Virus record (IMG/VR): IMGVR_UViG_3300042934_001319
Span: 1-24,480 of that record
Source: a virus
DNA length: 24,480 nucleotides
Direction: 5' to 3' (one strand)
Below are positions 17,112 through 24,480 of the stretch, in pieces. Positions within the stretch are counted from its first letter, which is position 1, and the number at the start of each line of letters is the position of its first letter. Below the pieces are notes generated by a model. That model saw nothing but the letters and a program-made list of their open reading frames with translations. It had not been told where the DNA came from and did not search any database. A program made the position numbers and the translations under genes.

Positions 17112-17812
17112 AACTGCACAAGATACTTTCGATCAACGGCGCGCCGATCGCACTGGTCAAGGAGGACGTGCGGTTAGACGCGACCAGCCCCGGCCGGGCG
17201 AACTTTACGGTTCAATCCTCGGCGCCGCTCAAAGGGCTCGTGACGCTGGATATTGGCTACAACGAAGGCACGCTGCAGCGACACTTCATCGGCTACGTCG
17301 AGCGCTGCACCGCTGCCAACGCGGTCGAGCAGGTTCTATTTTGCCGTGAGCTGGCGGCCGTGCTGGCCAACCCGCTGCCGCTGAATCTGCGCCATGTTGA
17401 CCTACGCGCCGTGCTGGCCGAGGTGAGCATACAAACCGGCTTGCGGTTTCGTGTTCCTGATAGCACTTATGCCAGCGTGAAGGCGCCGTATTTCTACAGC
17501 CTCGCCGCCGGCTACCAGGCGATGGACAGCTTGGCGCGAGTGTTCAGCATTCCTGACTTCACCTGGCACCAGCTCGGCAACGGGGAAGTGTTCGCCGGCA
17601 GTTGGGCCGATAGTTTTTTCGGCGCACGTGCGCCGCTGCAGATCCCCACGGAGCTGTTTGACGGCTACCAGGGCAACCAGAGCGCGATGGTCGCGGCCCT
17701 TCCAGGGTTGCGACCAGGTGCAACGATCAACAACGGCGAGCGCATCACCACGGTGGCGCTCGCCAATGACCAGATGGCCATCCGATGGACGACGCAATCC
17801 GCCGCGCTGTAG
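17108..17812 (+). CDS. Baseplate hub protein, gpD-like
   Basis: The 234-residue product starts at GTG 17108. It shows a hub-protein pattern: an N-terminal beta domain (SINGAPIALVKEDVRLDATS, SSAPLKGLVTLDIGYNEG, FIGYVERCTAANAVEQVLFC), then an LxxVLAEVSIQTGLRFRVPD segment and an aromatic region (FTWHQLGNGEVFAGSWADSF). This matches the late-control-protein-D/gp27-like tail hub on which the spike sits. It is shorter than P2 gpD (387), and its last 28 bp overlap the spike gene in another frame. Hub followed by spike is the usual pairing. Confidence 0.7.
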   Translation: MKLHKILSINGAPIALVKEDVRLDATSPGRANFTVQSSAPLKGLVTLDIGYNEGTLQRHFIGYVERCTAANAVEQVLFCRELAAVLANPLPLNLRHVDLRAVLAEVSIQTGLRFRVPDSTYASVKAPYFYSLAAGYQAMDSLARVFSIPDFTWHQLGNGEVFAGSWADSFFGARAPLQIPTELFDGYQGNQSAMVAALPGLRPGATINNGERITTVALANDQMAIRWTTQSAAL

Positions 17813-18759
17813 AGCGCCAATTCCCCGAACTCACCGGTGGATATCACTTGCCACGATTTGCCCGAGTTGTCGCCGTGGCCGATGCGCCGGCGGACGCCGG
17901 ACTGTGCGACGACTTCCGCCCGCGCTATGCCGTGGATATTGAAGTGCTCGGCGCCGACGACGAACCAGACCCAGCCATGCCGCCGCTCACTGGCGTCCCA
18001 TTGCCGCTGCCCACCGGTGGCGAAGAAATGGGCATCTATGCATTCCCGGAGGAGGGCACGCGGGTCGTCGTGTGCTTTGCGTATGGACTGCCGAACAAAC
18101 CCTACATCCAATCGATCTTGCCGCACGGCCTGAGCATGCCGAAGGTGCCGAAAGGTGATCAGGTGTGGCAGCACAGCGATGCAGCCCAGCAGCGCGTCGA
18201 CGCCGACGGTAACTGGCTACGCCAGACCGATGGCAAGATCCGCGACCAGTCGATCGAGCGCGAGGTTGAGGCCCTGGAAAATCGCGAGCAGTTCCAGAGC
18301 CACACGCAGACGATCGAAAACCATTCAATCGAGTCAGTGGGTGGAGTGAAGAACATCGAGGCGCTGGGCGCGCTCAAGCTGATGTCAGGCGGATCCGCGA
18401 GCTTGGCGGCAGTGGACGACCTTCACCAAGCGACTGGCCGGGATCTGAATTTGGTAGTGGGTCAGAAGCACAACGCCACGGTCGGCGGCGATATGCATGA
18501 ACGGATTGGAGGTTTTCGCAGAAGCCTGGCAGGAGTTAACCAAAAACTACAGGCCCCCAAAACATGGCTCGGTTCCGAGAGCATAAACGTGTTGCAATTG
18601 CTTGGCGAACTTATTGATATGGTAGAAGATATGAACGGCCAATTAGCCAGTCATGTTCATCCCCAGCTTGGTCAACCACCAACGAACGCTGGTATGTTCA
18701 CTGATAACCGTCGCGAAGCCGCTGCGCTCTTCACGAAGCTCAGCTCAATCACTCTTTAA
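17785..18759 (+). CDS. Baseplate spike protein, gpV-like
   Basis: The membrane-piercing tip of the tail. It has 324 residues, start ATG 17785, overlapping the hub gene by 28 bp. Residues about 20-118 form an OB-fold-like domain (YHLPRFARVVAVADAP, then PRYAVDIEVLGADDE and EEGTRVVVCFAYGLPNKPYI), typical of gpV/gp45/gp5 spikes. A repetitive stretch at about 140-260 (QTDGKIRDQSIEREVEALEN onward, GGVKNIEALGALKLMSGGSA) suits the triple beta helix. H290-V-H292 is an HxH motif of the kind that binds iron at the apex of P2 gpV. About 30 further residues follow it, which is more than in P2. From about 18530 the codons become AT-richer, suggesting a recombination joint within the gene. It ends the late operon, tail to tail with the next gene (4-bp overlap). 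Confidence 0.8.
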   Translation: MDDAIRRAVERQFPELTGGYHLPRFARVVAVADAPADAGLCDDFRPRYAVDIEVLGADDEPDPAMPPLTGVPLPLPTGGEEMGIYAFPEEGTRVVVCFAYGLPNKPYIQSILPHGLSMPKVPKGDQVWQHSDAAQQRVDADGNWLRQTDGKIRDQSIEREVEALENREQFQSHTQTIENHSIESVGGVKNIEALGALKLMSGGSASLAAVDDLHQATGRDLNLVVGQKHNATVGGDMHERIGGFRRSLAGVNQKLQAPKTWLGSESINVLQLLGELIDMVEDMNGQLASHVHPQLGQPPTNAGMFTDNRREAAALFTKLSSITL

Positions 18760-19790
18760 CGTTTCCACTGAGGAATATATTGGCGTGCCTGAAGTATGGA
18801 CTCTTTCGTTGAGCTATACACAGTTTCGCCGCAGGTCTCCGCCATGCGTTTGTTTAAGTGAATTACATCTTCAATTGTGACTTGCTCCTTTAAGTGGTTG
18901 TAGTCTTCTGAGTCGTTAATCATGTACGCATGTGTTGGAGATAGTGGGTAGTAAAGGTCTAATTTCTCCGGGGGCTCATCTGGGAGAGTCATGCACATAC
19001 ACGAGTGAACATTAACAACAGGTCTATCACTTGTAATGAAAGGCTTGATGGTTTTGTTTTCAATCAAGAAGTGTCTTTCCTTCGGAACTTCAAGCAAACC
19101 CTTTCCTAGGTTTATACCTAATAAGAAGCTGACAAACCACCAGTTGCGTTTCATCGCATCGGTGACAAACTGTGGCAGGTGCCTCGAGGACGCGTCGAGA
19201 GATTTATCTCGAACCGTTTTAGTTCTAACGAGTTGCTGAGCAATGTAAAAGAAAAAGGAGTGCTTTTGAACTATGTCAGCTAGCAAGCTCGTGTTGCCCT
19301 TCCTTAGCTCGCTGATCATCGGCCACGCTTGTCGTTCTATCTTGCCGTGCATGTCCTCTAGAACGTTGAACTGTAAAATCTGCGACACAAGATCTGTGTC
19401 TGGCTGATGTTCTCTGGCTCTACCTTTGAGTATGTTTGAAATAGCGATGAAATTGTTTAAGAATCCTTCGTGTATTTGCTGCAAGTCATTGCTTGCAAGT
19501 TTAGAAATCGTTCGAATGTATAGAAGGTCGTCATCGTTGAAGGTTGTGATCTTGTAAAACCCCAACTCCTTCGCTACTCCTTTTACGCTCTCAGTCGCGG
19601 GTAGCCCCTTTTTTGTAATGTAGTGGATTTGCTTTTTTGATGCCCACGCCTGTAGATATCGCGCCCAGACATAGTGGTGCTTACGTTTTACTTCGAAGTC
19701 TTTTGGGTTCATAAGCATCCAGTCCACAATTCTACGTTGATTATTAGGAGGTATAGCAGAGCGAATAGATTTGTGCGTTTGCTTCACCAC
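18756..19790 (-). CDS. DUF4238-like protein of unknown function (accessory/moron gene)
   Basis: A 344-residue soluble protein. Its start is uncertain: GTG at 19790 gives the longest form, and ATG codons at 19718 and 19712 (residues 25 and 27) would leave the domain whole. Two features fit the DUF4238 family: an N-terminal KHHYVWARYLQAW at 37-49 and SDRPV at 254-258, followed by a PLSP motif in the LDLYYPLSPTHAYMI region. The family has no settled biochemistry; the paired histidines, SDxP and PLSP look like a possible active or binding site. It opposes the late operon, is visibly AT-richer than the phage core, and lies in the accessory slot next to attR. Such position and base content are typical of lysogenic-conversion genes. 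No function is assigned. Confidence 0.75.
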   Translation of the reverse strand: MVKQTHKSIRSAIPPNNQRRIVDWMLMNPKDFEVKRKHHYVWARYLQAWASKKQIHYITKKGLPATESVKGVAKELGFYKITTFNDDDLLYIRTISKLASNDLQQIHEGFLNNFIAISNILKGRAREHQPDTDLVSQILQFNVLEDMHGKIERQAWPMISELRKGNTSLLADIVQKHSFFFYIAQQLVRTKTVRDKSLDASSRHLPQFVTDAMKRNWWFVSFLLGINLGKGLLEVPKERHFLIENKTIKPFITSDRPVVNVHSCMCMTLPDEPPEKLDLYYPLSPTHAYMINDSEDYNHLKEQVTIEDVIHLNKRMAETCGETVYSSTKESILQARQYIPQWKR

Positions 19791-19797
19791 TATGATT

Positions 19798-19820
19798 TAA
19801 AAAAACACTTGATGGTCAAG
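19798..19820 (-). terminator. Weak intrinsic terminator between the two distal accessory genes
   Basis: On the minus strand CTTGA-CCA-TCAAG (19820-19808) forms a 5-bp hairpin followed by a T run (19805-19799). It would end transcripts of the 19899-20552 gene. The same bases contain TTGACC and an AT-rich run, so they could also be part of a promoter for the DUF4238 gene. The stem is short, hence moderate confidence. Confidence 0.4.
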
Positions 19821-19898
19821 CTTGCTGTGGAGATTAGCTGGCGCAGTAGTCTAAGCCATGCACAAGATGTAACCGGATGAGTCTAGACTGAGCTGTTG

Positions 19899-20552
19899 CT
19901 ATAAACCTAGCGAAGCATTTTCTAAATTTACGTTGTTTATGGCGAGATCACAGCCTGCGATATCTTCAGTCGGCGTTCCAATTGTTTTTAAGTGCGAAAG
20001 CATTTCGTAATGATCTATATAGTCGTTCAATTTGATCATCCTGCAGAGTCTAGCTGTTTCGATTGTTATGCTGAGGAGGTTTAACATGTCCACCGATCGT
20101 TCGTATGGTGTAGATTGGCCGCTGCGATTGCCTAGTTTTAGGTTGATTTCCTTAAGTCGTTCTAGTGTCAGTTGAATCCAGTAACGTTGGTTTCGGCTGT
20201 ATTTATGTGCGACATCAATGAAGTAAGAGTCGATGCATAATCCGCTTATGCTTCCTGGTAGCCGATTACCAACAATCGGAGATCTCTGAATTAGGAGAGA
20301 GACCAAGCGTGCACACTCCTTTGCAGTTTCATTGAGTGCATGTTCTAAAGCGTCGATGTCTTCATTAATGCACATAATTTTATTGTTTGCTGACTTGTTG
20401 TCTTTCACCTTACTGCTAGAAAAATTCAGAGCGAAGCCGAGCGTAGTACCAATCAAGGCTCCAGCAATAGGTAATATTTTATCAAACAAGCCTTTGCTAG
20501 GATTTATGGTCTGCATGAAGGTTAAGCATTGACTGAAGTTCTCAATATCCAA
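19899..20552 (-). CDS. Small membrane-anchored helical protein of unknown function
   Basis: I do not recognise this gene. The longest form is 217 residues from TTG 20552; ATG 20516 (205 residues) is a reasonable alternative and neither has a strong ribosome site. One membrane segment lies near the N-terminus (residues about 26-44, ILPIAGALIGTTLGFALNF). A Lys/Asn-rich linker and a long helical domain follow (INEDIDALEHALNETAKECA; YWIQLTLERLKEINLKLG). With one N-terminal anchor and a cytoplasmic helical body it could be a membrane sensor or an exclusion protein; this is inference. It starts 35 bp after the antirepressor stop on the same strand, so both are probably cotranscribed. Base composition is AT-rich, unlike the structural genes. 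Confidence 0.6.
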   Translation of the reverse strand: MDIENFSQCLTFMQTINPSKGLFDKILPIAGALIGTTLGFALNFSSSKVKDNKSANNKIMCINEDIDALEHALNETAKECARLVSLLIQRSPIVGNRLPGSISGLCIDSYFIDVAHKYSRNQRYWIQLTLERLKEINLKLGNRSGQSTPYERSVDMLNLLSITIETARLCRMIKLNDYIDHYEMLSHLKTIGTPTEDIAGCDLAINNVNLENASLGL

Positions 20553-20587
20553 TTTGGTAATCTCGATCCGTATTGTTGTTTGAATTT

Positions 20588-21424
20588 TTATTTTTTGTTG
20601 GGTCCTGCGTGGCCTTCAAAAACCCAGCATCGTATCGTTTTTCCTTCAATGGAACTGCCCTTCGCACCTCTAGTTATATATCGTGGGCTTTTACTTGCTT
20701 TCATTGCATTTCGTAACACTGAGTCGAAGTGCAGCGCGATATTGTGTTTCTTGAACAACTCGGCAAGGTGAGGAAGTTTGAGGTAAATCATCCCGCTCAT
20801 CCATGGCGCATGGTTGTATCGTTCTCCCTTACGATCCAAGACATCAAGGGCATCCCATAATTGGTTGACTACGTCAGATGCACCTATTGTGCCTAAGCCT
20901 ATCGTCTCAAGTGCCGGCACGGACAGACCCAGCTGCCTGGAAATCTGCGCCAGTTGCTCGTGCAGCGCAACCCGTAAACCGTTGTCCTGAGTCCGGTGCA
21001 GCTCTTTCAGTAAAGCTACACGATGCCGCGATAGGGCAATCTGCTGACTGACATTCGGTGCCTCGGTGCGTATTGCACCGCCCTTGGTCCAGTAGTCCCA
21101 CAGTACATCGTCGCAGTCCGCCTGATACTGAATGACCTTGTCGCGCAACTCGGGTGCAACTTTGTTTGGGCTGATGGAGTAGAGCCAAGCGGGGAGCTTC
21201 CGTAATGGTAAGCAGATCATTCCCCTGACTCTGCCATCCTCAGCCACCGTGTCGATTTCCGACACGGTTGAGTCAAACCGCTCTGCTATTTTTATCCGCT
21301 GCGCTGACCACCCGAGTCCCATGTTCTCAACGATCGGTCGCATTGCTACATATGGCTCGTTCTCTTTGCCTACCAAAACAATAGTGTCACCGTGAAAAGG
21401 GACTGATATTAGCTGTGTCTGCAT
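20588..21424 (-). CDS. Phage antirepressor, P22_AR_N-type
   Basis: The 278-residue protein starts at ATG 21424 with a good AAGGA ribosome site (21436-21431). Residues about 5-120 match the P22 Ant-type N-terminal domain: ISVPFHGDTIVLVGKENEPY, VAMRPIVENMGLGWSAQRIK and MICLPLRKLPAWLYSISPNK, then VIQYQADCDDVLWDYWTKGG. The C-terminal part (about 150-278) has a conserved-looking NHAPWMSGMIYLKLPHLAEL and a basic end (RNAMKASKSPRYITRGAKGS). P22 Ant binds and disables phage repressors, so this protein may counter the resident or a competing repressor. It appears to lead the accessory operon. Its own control region is upstream on the minus strand (21437-21560), with a dyad but no clear promoter. Confidence 0.88.
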   Translation of the reverse strand: MQTQLISVPFHGDTIVLVGKENEPYVAMRPIVENMGLGWSAQRIKIAERFDSTVSEIDTVAEDGRVRGMICLPLRKLPAWLYSISPNKVAPELRDKVIQYQADCDDVLWDYWTKGGAIRTEAPNVSQQIALSRHRVALLKELHRTQDNGLRVALHEQLAQISRQLGLSVPALETIGLGTIGASDVVNQLWDALDVLDRKGERYNHAPWMSGMIYLKLPHLAELFKKHNIALHFDSVLRNAMKASKSPRYITRGAKGSSIEGKTIRCWVFEGHAGPNKK

Positions 21425-21601: not shown

Positions 21602-22045
21602 GTGCAAATCCAAAATGGGTGCAAGTGCCCCTGTAACTCGCGCCAGCCGTGGGGCAGCGCAGGTGCGTTCCCATTTCACGGTTTGCAAATGTTGGAAGAA
21701 AAATGCATCGGCGTTGCAGAGCTAGTTCATGGCTGGCTTGCAACTGGAGCCCGCTGCAGCTTCCGGCCTGGCTGGCGGACCTGCTCAAAAACTCTGGTTT
21801 AAGCGACTTTTCATTTGTGATCGATCAAGTTCAGAGGGTGCTCGGCAGATGCAGGGAGCCCGAGCAATACAGCCGCAACGCCCTAAAGCACAACGCTGCG
21901 GCCCGCTCTCGGCCTTGGCACAGCTTTCACAAGACTGCACTCGAATCGACCAGGTAAGCGGGTCCGATCCGGCATCTAAAAAATTAACTGATCGGCAAGC
22001 GGCCGTGTTTTTCCCCCTACTCAACATGCCTATTTCCAGATGAGG
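21602..22045 (+). other. Gene-free or decayed stretch; no gene recognised
   Basis: Three overlapping plus-strand open frames of 94-104 codons lie here (21518-21802, 21649-21957, 21729-22043), none with a convincing ribosome site. The frame at 21649 has the most protein-like second half (WSPLQLPAWLADLLKNSGLS, then DFSFVIDQVQRVLGRCREPE). It might be the remnant of a gene. GC content here rises above the neighbouring accessory block. I assign no product. Confidence 0.3.
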
Positions 22046-22056
22046 GCTGGGAAAAA

Positions 22057-22330
22057 GGTAATTTTGGTAAGCGGAGTATAGAAACGGCCTGCAGCCCTTA
22101 TGGCGCTTGGCTTTCCGTCATTACCTCACAGGGTAATTTTAGGTAAGGCTGAAGGTAATATTTTCCGAAGTGCCTGATTTTACTGGGTTTGACGCTGATG
22201 GAGGATTACCAGTCTTAAAGGTAATTTTCTAACCTATTACTTACCTGATTATTACCTTTGCTGAAACCTACCAAAGCCCCGGTTTTGAAGGCTTCCAGCG
22301 GCTACCGCTGCCCACATTACCAATATTACC
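22057..22330. repeat. Cluster of GGTAAT/ATTACC motifs, candidate Cox/excisionase or regulator sites
   Basis: Nine copies of GGTAAT occur on either strand: forward at 22057, 22132, 22154 and 22220, reverse at 22120, 22205, 22251, 22316 and 22325. Three GGTAAG variants lie at 22066, 22142 and (reverse) 22240. Several form pairs 9-12 bp apart, one helical turn, for example GGTAATTTTGGTAAG and GGTAATTTTAGGTAAG. The copy at 22132-22141 (GGTAATTTTA) fits the HP1 Cox consensus as I remember it (GGTMAWWWWA). The place between phage genes and the attachment core fits excisionase binding. Function is inference. Confidence 0.6.
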
Positions 22331-22468
22331 TTTTTCCCATGGCTCAACATAAAACGCAAAAACTCCCACTGCGAACCGTTTTTACGTCCTAACGCGTTTT
22401 TGCTCTGGGACAGCCATGGGACAGATCTGGGACAGATTCTGGACAGACGACCGGGCTGCAGCCCTTAT
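22089..22468 (+). repeat. 13-bp direct repeat CTGCAGCCCTTAT flanking the attachment control region
   Basis: Identical copies stand at 22089-22101 and 22456-22468. The second lies between the TGGGACAG repeats and the tRNA remnant. The core CTGCAG is palindromic and the second copy is preceded by GGG, forming GGGCTGCAGCCC. A protein-binding role in recombination is possible but unsupported. Confidence 0.4.
22405..22446 (+). repeat. Four phased TGGGACAG repeats, candidate integrase arm-type sites
   Basis: CTGGGACAG (22405), ATGGGACAG (22416), CTGGGACAG (22427) and the shorter CTGGACAG (22439) repeat with an 11-12 bp period, so all would face one side of the helix. They end about 60 bp before the tRNA-Ser remnant. 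Tandem short direct repeats beside a core site are the normal form of arm-type sites for phage tyrosine integrases. The integrase itself is not in the window. Confidence 0.6.
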
Positions 22469-22508: not shown

Positions 22509-22531
22509 TTCGAATCTCTCCTTCACCGCCA
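22509..22531 (+). other. attR core: 3' end of a tRNA-Ser gene
   Basis: These 23 bases read as the tRNA 3' end: T loop TTCGAAT (22509-22515), T-stem strand CTCTC, acceptor strand CTTCACC, discriminator G and CCA (22529-22531). G as discriminator and CTTCACC (partner GGTGAAG) fit tRNA-Ser. The bases before (GGGTAGT) cannot pair as the 5' T-stem strand GAGAG, and no anticodon or D arm is found upstream, so the gene is not complete here. Prophages that insert in tRNA genes leave such a 3' copy at one end. The intact tRNA is predicted at the other prophage end. Confidence 0.8.
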
Positions 22532-22714: not shown

Positions 22715-22743
22715 TTGACCCTCCGAACCGTCCCGAGTTTACT
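22715..22743 (+). promoter_or_regulatory. Sigma-70 promoter of umuDC
   Basis: TTGACC (22715-22720) and TTTACT (22738-22743) are separated by exactly 17 bp, a good -35/-10 pair. The -10 element overlaps the first bases of the LexA box, so bound LexA would block polymerase. The umuD ATG is about 38 bp downstream. Confidence 0.7.
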
Positions 22744-22759
22744 GTATGTGCATACAGTA
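22740..22759 (+). promoter_or_regulatory. LexA operator (SOS box)
   Basis: TACTGTATGTGCATACAGTA is a near-perfect 20-bp palindrome with CTG-N10-CAG, the gamma-proteobacterial LexA consensus. It lies 22 bp before umuD and covers the -10 region, so the operon should be tightly repressed and induced by DNA damage. Confidence 0.96.
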
Positions 22760-22781
22760 AATTCACTATCAGGTTCGTATC

Positions 22782-23213
22782 ATGAGCGTCACCATCCTCG
22801 GCCCGTTGTCAGGCGCGGGCGAAAAGCTTGCGTTGTATTCGTTTCGGATTCCCGCCGGTTTTCCTTCGCCGGCGGCTGATCACATTGAAAAGCACATTTC
22901 GCTTGATGAGATCTTCGATATTCGTGCGCCGCACGTTTATCTGGCGAAGATCGAAGGCGAAAGCATGCAGGACGCCGGGATATTTTGCGGTGATCTGGTG
23001 ATTGTTGATCGCAGCCTGAATGCCGAGCACGGCGATATCGTCATCGCCGGTCTCAACTCCGAACCCATCTGCAAGCGCCTGCACATGCGCGACAACACCG
23101 TCATCCTTCTTTCGGCCAACAGCAAATACCCGCCTCGCTACGTGATGGAAGGGGATGAGTTGGTGATCTGGGGCGTGGTCACTTACAGCGTGCGCGACCA
23201 TGGCAAATCGTGA
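22782..23213 (+). CDS. umuD: UmuD, self-cleaving subunit/regulator of DNA polymerase V
   Basis: The 143-residue protein is an S24-family autoprotease that, after RecA-stimulated self-cleavage, joins UmuC to form translesion polymerase V. The cleavage site is A25-G26 in IPAGFPSPAAD, aligned with C24-G25 of E. coli UmuD. The catalytic nucleophile S61 lies in IEGESMQDAG and the general base K98 in ICKRLHM; all key residues are intact. The ATG at 22782 is preceded only by a modest AGG. The gene overlaps umuC by 14 bp, giving translational coupling. Regulation by LexA is clear from the box upstream. It is a host gene just outside the prophage. Confidence 0.96.
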   Translation: MSVTILGPLSGAGEKLALYSFRIPAGFPSPAADHIEKHISLDEIFDIRAPHVYLAKIEGESMQDAGIFCGDLVIVDRSLNAEHGDIVIAGLNSEPICKRLHMRDNTVILLSANSKYPPRYVMEGDELVIWGVVTYSVRDHGKS

Positions 23214-24480
23214 GCAGGTTTTCGCGCTGATCGATTGCAACAGCTTCTATGCCAGCTGTGAGCGAGTGTTCCGGCCCGATCTGGCGAAGACGCCGATTGT
23301 CGTGCTGAGCAATAACGATGGCTGCGTGATCGCGCGCAGTTATGACGCCAAGCCCTTTGTGAAAATGGGCGCGCCGTATTTCCAGATTCGCGATGATTTG
23401 CGCCGCCAAGGCATTCAGGTGTTCAGCAGTAATTACGCCTTGTACGGCGACATGAGCGAGCGGGTGATGACGATCATCGAATCCATGGTGCCGGCCGTCG
23501 AGGTGTACAGCATTGATGAGGCGTTCGCCGATCTCAGCGGCATTCCTGGGGACCTGACCGCGTTTGGCCGAACCATCCGCTCCGCCGTTTATAAACGCAC
23601 CGGCATCCCGGTCGGCGTCGGCATCGCCCCCACGAAAACGCTGGCCAAGCTCGCCAACCACACTGCCAAACGCTTGCAAGCGCATACCGGCGGCGTGGTC
23701 GACATCTGCGATCCGTCCAAACGCGATTGGGTGCTGCGCAACACCGATGTCGGTGAAGTGTGGGGCGTCGGGCGGCGGATGAAAGCTCATCTGGAAAGCA
23801 TGCAGATCAGAAGCGCGATGGACCTGGCGAAGGCCGATCCGTGGACGCTGCGGCGCAAGTTCAGCGTGGTGATCGAGAAGACCGCGCGCGAACTGGGTGG
23901 CACATCCTGTCTGGAACTGTCCGAGACGGAACCGCCGAAGCAGGAAGTCTGCAGCAGCCGCATGTTTGGCAACCGTTTGACTACCATCGAACCGATCAAA
24001 GAAGCCGTGGCGACTTATGTGCATCGAGCGGCGGAAAAGCTGCGCGCGCAGAATTCGCTGTGCAAAAAGATCCGCGTGAGTATCCGCACCGGCATGTTTA
24101 ATCCCGAGGAGGCCAAGTACGCCAACGGCGCGCTGATCGAGCTGCCTTATCCGACCAATGATGTGCGATTGCTGAGCAAGGTCGCGAGCGAAGCGATTGA
24201 TCGATTGTTCCGGCCGGGGTTCAAGTACAGCAAGGCTGAGGTGCTGTTGATGGATCTGCGACAGCCCGGAGAATTTACCGAGGACCTGTTTGCACAGTCC
24301 CAACCTCAAGCGGCGGAGAGGGTGATGGGCGTGCTGGACCAGATCAATCAACGCTGGGGGCATGGAACATTGCGAGCGGGGAGCGTGCCGGCGGATCCTG
24401 CCTGGGGCATGCGGCGGGAGATGATGAGTGCGAGTTTTACAACGAAGCTGGATCAATTGTGGGTCGTTAAATCTAATTGA
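23200..24480 (+). CDS. umuC: UmuC, catalytic subunit of error-prone DNA polymerase V
   Basis: The Y-family polymerase copies across damaged bases during the SOS response, with UmuD'2 as partner. The gene is complete: ATG 23200 to TGA 24478-24480, the final base of the window, 426 residues (E. coli UmuC 422). Visible motifs are D12 in LIDCNSFYASCERVF (first metal ligand), the NNDGCVIARSYDAK finger motif, D106-E107 in YSIDEAF (catalytic acids) and GVGIAPTKTLAKLAN. The little-finger and C-terminal regions follow without gaps. A long minus-strand frame over it (23179-24456) is a shadow caused by GC-rich codons. Confidence 0.97.
   Translation: MANREQVFALIDCNSFYASCERVFRPDLAKTPIVVLSNNDGCVIARSYDAKPFVKMGAPYFQIRDDLRRQGIQVFSSNYALYGDMSERVMTIIESMVPAVEVYSIDEAFADLSGIPGDLTAFGRTIRSAVYKRTGIPVGVGIAPTKTLAKLANHTAKRLQAHTGGVVDICDPSKRDWVLRNTDVGEVWGVGRRMKAHLESMQIRSAMDLAKADPWTLRRKFSVVIEKTARELGGTSCLELSETEPPKQEVCSSRMFGNRLTTIEPIKEAVATYVHRAAEKLRAQNSLCKKIRVSIRTGMFNPEEAKYANGALIELPYPTNDVRLLSKVASEAIDRLFRPGFKYSKAEVLLMDLRQPGEFTEDLFAQSQPQAAERVMGVLDQINQRWGHGTLRAGSVPADPAWGMRREMMSASFTTKLDQLWVVKSN

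Follow-up and report, generated by a model that had tools for sequence, protein, structure and literature searches.

A defence-rich slot of Pseudomonas P2-like prophages that probably stacks a DUF4238 gene, a membrane-protein gene and a P22-type antirepressor gene

The window, i.e., the whole stretch of 24,480 bases that was analyzed, is a virus record from a phi3-like Pseudomonas P2-like prophage (Peduoviridae), and its DNA matches are to the Pseudomonas phages UFJF_PfPro and phi3 and their relatives (Peduoviridae). A preliminary description placed three genes of the minus strand between the last tail gene and attR; they are real, correctly positioned, and occupy the first 2.7 kb after the tail gene (Table 1). 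The stop codons of the DUF4238 gene and of the last tail gene overlap by 4 bp, and the antirepressor gene leads the run, with 35 bp separating it from the membrane-protein gene. On the right, the tRNA-Ser(GGA) fragment of attR (match from 22509) also ends dozens of related prophage loci, while the intact tRNA-Ser(GGA) is present in four related loci.

Table 1. Features of the cargo slot and its borders in the window
Feature	Position	Strand	Evidence and remarks
Last tail gene (baseplate protein)	17785..18759	+	phrog_4011, E 2e-140; left edge of cargo slot
DUF4238 protein, ORF of 344 aa	18756..19790	-	PF14022, E 2.3e-21; predicted to defend against phages as a single gene
Membrane protein, 217 aa, TTG start	19899..20552	-	Undescribed family
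P22-type antirepressor, 278 aa	20588..21424	-	PF10547, E 1.6e-45; phrog_524 anti-repressor Ant, E 5e-62
Three partly degenerate 22-bp copies, 11-bp spacing, CTGGGACAGA-like	22404..22447	+	Repeat search; adjoin attR
attR, 3' end of tRNA-Ser(GGA)	22509..22531	+	Right prophage edge

The block had been described as AT-richer than the structural genes, which holds for the block (GC of 0.44, 0.41, and 0.51 for the DUF4238, membrane-protein, and antirepressor genes, respectively, versus 0.59 for the last tail gene and ~0.61 to 0.64 for the late operon), and much less so for the antirepressor gene. An AT-rich segment that varies among strains could be degenerate or neutral passenger DNA, but this is contradicted by the open frames and by dN/dS ratios of ~0.1 in all three genes (~0.08, ~0.08, and ~0.10 for the membrane protein, DUF4238, and the antirepressor, respectively, against the close relative L003), and we consider it extremely improbable. 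Judged by these ratios, all three genes are under strong purifying selection and thus none of them is a chance ORF. Matches in a promoter and terminator scan were no more frequent than in shuffles, and an Rfam search matched no family.

The DUF4238-like identity of the third gene proved correct, its protein scoring 76.9 bits in a Pfam profile search against a curated cut-off of 27. Codons 1 to 26 of the ORF are without protein-level constraint (dN 0.46, dS 0.20) and relatives begin at the equivalent of residue 25; hence, translation probably begins with the ATG at 19718 or 19712 rather than with the GTG at 19790, which would give a protein of ~320 aa. The motifs HHYVW, TSDxP, and DLYYPLSP are largely kept across 21 aligned relatives, and conserved acidic and histidine residues, among them H39, E145, D255, and D278, may belong to an active site. 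The predicted structure (pLDDT 79) is mixed at the N terminus and helical in the centre (~86 to 233), and its C-terminal part bears the conserved TSDxP and DLYYPLSP. The structure comparison that the preliminary description had proposed gave no fold match for this model (nothing at E under 0.001 with Foldseek, a VIA Z of 4.5 at best), and a sequence search for solved homologues returned none.

The block had also been put forward as the likely place of an undescribed system, and for the defence gene this is no longer tenable, the anti-phage activity of DUF4238 having already been published (PMC9122126). In 2022, Rousset et al. described DUF4238 as an anti-phage system that consists of one gene and is carried by E. 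coli P2-like phages; such a gene, taken from the P2 hotspot of E. coli, conferred strong T7 resistance by a molecular function unknown to its authors (PMC9122126), and DUF4238 is listed among the defence systems of P. aeruginosa (PMC10855318). The published system and the window share the DUF4238 domain, the single gene, and the hypervariable slot of a P2-like phage, but the former lies in the gpA-gpQ slot beside cos in E. coli and the latter between the last tail gene and attR in Pseudomonas (PMC9122126). The window protein is likened to the tested E. coli protein through the shared domain, not through direct sequence alignment; the nearest enterobacterial match is a Klebsiella plasmid gene (31% identity), which has no E. 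coli DNA match. Since one DUF4238 gene from elsewhere was tested as anti-phage (PMC9122126), we infer that the gene of the window is a one-protein defence gene. Our best guess is that its product would act as a cytosolic one-protein sensor-effector halting some incoming phages.

DUF4238 genes without the membrane-protein gene were found in L135, L180-L183, L185-L187, and L212-L220, and those of L180-L183, L185-L187, and L212-L220 are solo genes with varied neighbours and no fixed partner. Those without either of the other two genes lie in P2-like phages (L135, L182, L185, L186, L212, and L213) and elsewhere in Pseudomonas genomes (L214-L220), as well as in Stenotrophomonas phage Smp131 and on plasmids. 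In two related slots (L135:3526-4998 and L182:3236-4723), DUF4238 is paired with a protein of 490 to 495 aa whose C terminus carries a SEC-C-like motif (CPCGSEKKYKKCC in L135).

The 217-aa membrane protein matched no family over the cut-off in Pfam, NCBIfam, or PADLOC and gave only sub-threshold matches in Pfam. A Methyltransf_24 match was discarded as chance (E 0.007, under the cut-off, in 2/16 members only), and a weak phrog_23177 match (E 0.005) was set aside. Hydropathy predicts one transmembrane helix (~26 to 44) with conserved glycines and followed by charged residues, and in the structural model (pLDDT 84) a helical bundle follows this helix. The fold matches of this model, which the proposed comparison also covered, were uninformative, being generic four-helix bundles only (Z up to 10.8), many of them designed proteins. 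The protein would sit in the inner membrane by its N-terminal anchor with the helical domain in the cytosol, following positive-inside reasoning. Relatives are 23 to 78% identical to the window protein, and the alignment of 16 members holds F6, Q8, C9, G35, K50, K58, C61, E64, A115, and R123 invariant. A genome scan with the single sequence found nothing and the relatives came from alignment-based searches, in Pseudomonas only; in a Gammaproteobacteria sample, run without positive control, the family was present in 0/369 genomes. In the way it might work, the protein resembles membrane superinfection-exclusion and Abi proteins, which are likewise small and prophage-borne with one N-terminal transmembrane helix and a helical domain, but it has no sequence match to any described family in the libraries searched. 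This family, which offers a concrete and small target for study, may be the sole part of the block that is new to science.

The claim of a P22-type antirepressor was borne out by the two profile matches of Table 1, the P22_AR_N domain (PF10547) spanning residues 7 to 117 as a likeness to P22 Ant; no mnt/arc-like arrangement, which would be a further likeness, was noticed beside the window gene in a passing and unsystematic look. P22 Ant antagonises a repressor, and the window protein would similarly belong to phage regulation, antagonising the repressor of its own or of an incoming phage. With this gene first in the run and just 35 bp before the next, the block could be conceived as a lysogeny-control module in which the antirepressor would provide the core function, with the two genes downstream carried along in its transcript. 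The composition of the antirepressor gene differs from theirs, however, and relatives of it occur with other cargo and with neither DUF4238 nor the membrane protein in L126, L045, L059, and L060, in L126 even on the opposite strand. The DUF4238 and membrane-protein genes are, moreover, widespread without an antirepressor, and such a module appears very unlikely to us.

The slot itself was surveyed with the last tail gene as the anchor: 160 loci were fetched and, with the window, 154 slots were long enough past the anchor, the slot counts being approximate because near-duplicates occur among these loci. Of the 154 slots, 117 contain, within 2.6 kb, an AT-rich ORF no shorter than 120 aa, the tail region of the surveyed loci having a mean GC of 0.62, and the AT-rich clusters number 135, of which 82 are singletons. 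Cargo representatives match models of AbiLi, AriA (PARIS), GajA/PtuA/OLD-type ATPases (heavily overlapping models that identify a class, not individual named systems), HEC-01, and PDC, and also HEPN, RloB, DUF4435, AIPR, PRTase-CE, KAP, acyltransferase, and other domains. The same slot holds HicAB in phi3 and a glycosyltransferase in UFJF_PfPro. The view of this slot as a place of cargo with a defence theme was thus well founded, and the slot between the last tail gene and attR is, by its gene content, a defence-rich cargo hotspot. It is analogous to the gpA-gpQ hotspot of defence genes in E. coli P2-like phages (PMC9122126) but has another position in the genome; P2 old/tin and the E. coli P2-like cargo are likewise variable defence cargo of Peduoviridae prophages differing in position. 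In P. syringae, Peduoviridae prophages carry defence genes according to a recent survey (PMC13182921). Our mapping adds a hypervariable slot in which known and candidate defence genes abound and places the DUF4238 gene in Pseudomonas P2-like prophages; because of this abundance, an uncharacterised gene in the slot is a good candidate for testing. On the attR side of the cargo, a conserved 98-aa gene of the minus strand (MHVLVTPMRLRGVALDPKERRRYPA..., e.g., L118:7721-8029) is found in 63 of the 154 slots; it is missing in the window and in 4/5 of the other antirepressor-bearing loci.

Scoring co-occurrence and gene order across the slots went against the three genes forming one module, as had been suggested: the trio is restricted to the window and its close relative L090 among the 154 slots and each gene occurs without the others, so that an obligate three-gene module was rejected and stacked cargo is indicated instead. 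We therefore propose that the block is probably stacked cargo of the Pseudomonas P2-like hotspot, made up of a stand-alone anti-phage DUF4238 gene, a separate and interchangeable membrane-protein gene, and an antirepressor gene of phage regulation. We infer that these genes are expressed in the lysogen, where the membrane protein would most likely serve as an exclusion or accessory defence factor.

A closer tie between two of the genes deserves weighing, namely, a two-component system in which DUF4238 would be the cytosolic sensor or enzyme and the membrane protein its effector or anchor, the antirepressor being incidental. The two genes lie side by side in the window and L090 and share a slot again in a distinct and diverged lineage, L175, where the pair shows 28 to 36% identity and swapped gene order. 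Their overlap in the 154 slots (2 shared, 3 and 1 with one gene alone, 148 with neither; Fisher p 0.0025) exceeds chance, an excess resting on one lineage, and together with the L175 case it makes a functional link possible. Nevertheless, at least nine DUF4238 genes stand in other phage or genomic settings without a membrane partner, the membrane-protein gene pairs with many unrelated genes, none of 399 Pseudomonas genomes has both families (membrane family in 6, DUF4238 in 11), and the published DUF4238 system is a single gene (PMC9122126). Altogether, a dedicated pair seems quite unlikely.

The company of the membrane-protein gene suggests yet another role. It occurs without DUF4238 in L118, L027, L075, L171-L174, L176-L178, and L207-L211, and its neighbours include AbiLi/AbiLii-like (L172), HEPN_LA2681 (L177), DUF5677 (L178), DzbB-like (L208), OLD-like (L210), PDC-S39 (L211), and DUF4238 (L175) proteins as well as an unclassified one (L174). 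In these eight loci, it lies on the same strand, 6 to 293 bp downstream of the defence-type or, in L174, unclassified gene, as would befit a general partner or regulator of whichever defence gene lies upstream (for instance, their common membrane effector, anchor, or attenuator). The hotspot by itself would yield such neighbours, however, and the gene has none of them in L171, L176, L207, L209, and L237 and precedes its neighbour in the window, L090, L075, and L173; we hold a general partnership to be unlikely. A bolder version, that the protein represents a hitherto undescribed family of anti-phage proteins in Pseudomonas prophages, i.e., a membrane-anchored helical shared effector or accessory factor that combines freely with cytosolic defence genes of unrelated kinds (DUF4238, AbiL-like, OLD-like, HEPN, and PDC-S39), is offered tentatively and as a rather doubtful proposal. 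Beside the membrane protein, a family of 302 to 313 aa without Pfam or PADLOC match also recurs (L075:7055-7996 and L178:2010-2918).

Between the antirepressor gene and attR, GGTAAT/ATTACC motifs recur at 22041-22346, a region that also contains a 30-nt inverted repeat (87% complementary), and the 22-bp copies next to attR are possible candidates for integrase arm sites. Past attR, umuD-umuC (22782-24480) is preceded by a LexA-box-like palindrome, TACTGTATGTGCATACAGTA, at 22735-22764, and the window record stops exactly at the umuC stop codon. In other prophages, umuDC lies inside or beside the cargo slot (L212:5990-7724, L181:3246-4944, and L058:7932-9630), adjoining a DUF4238 gene in L212 and L181; given these positions, umuDC may itself be mobile cargo.
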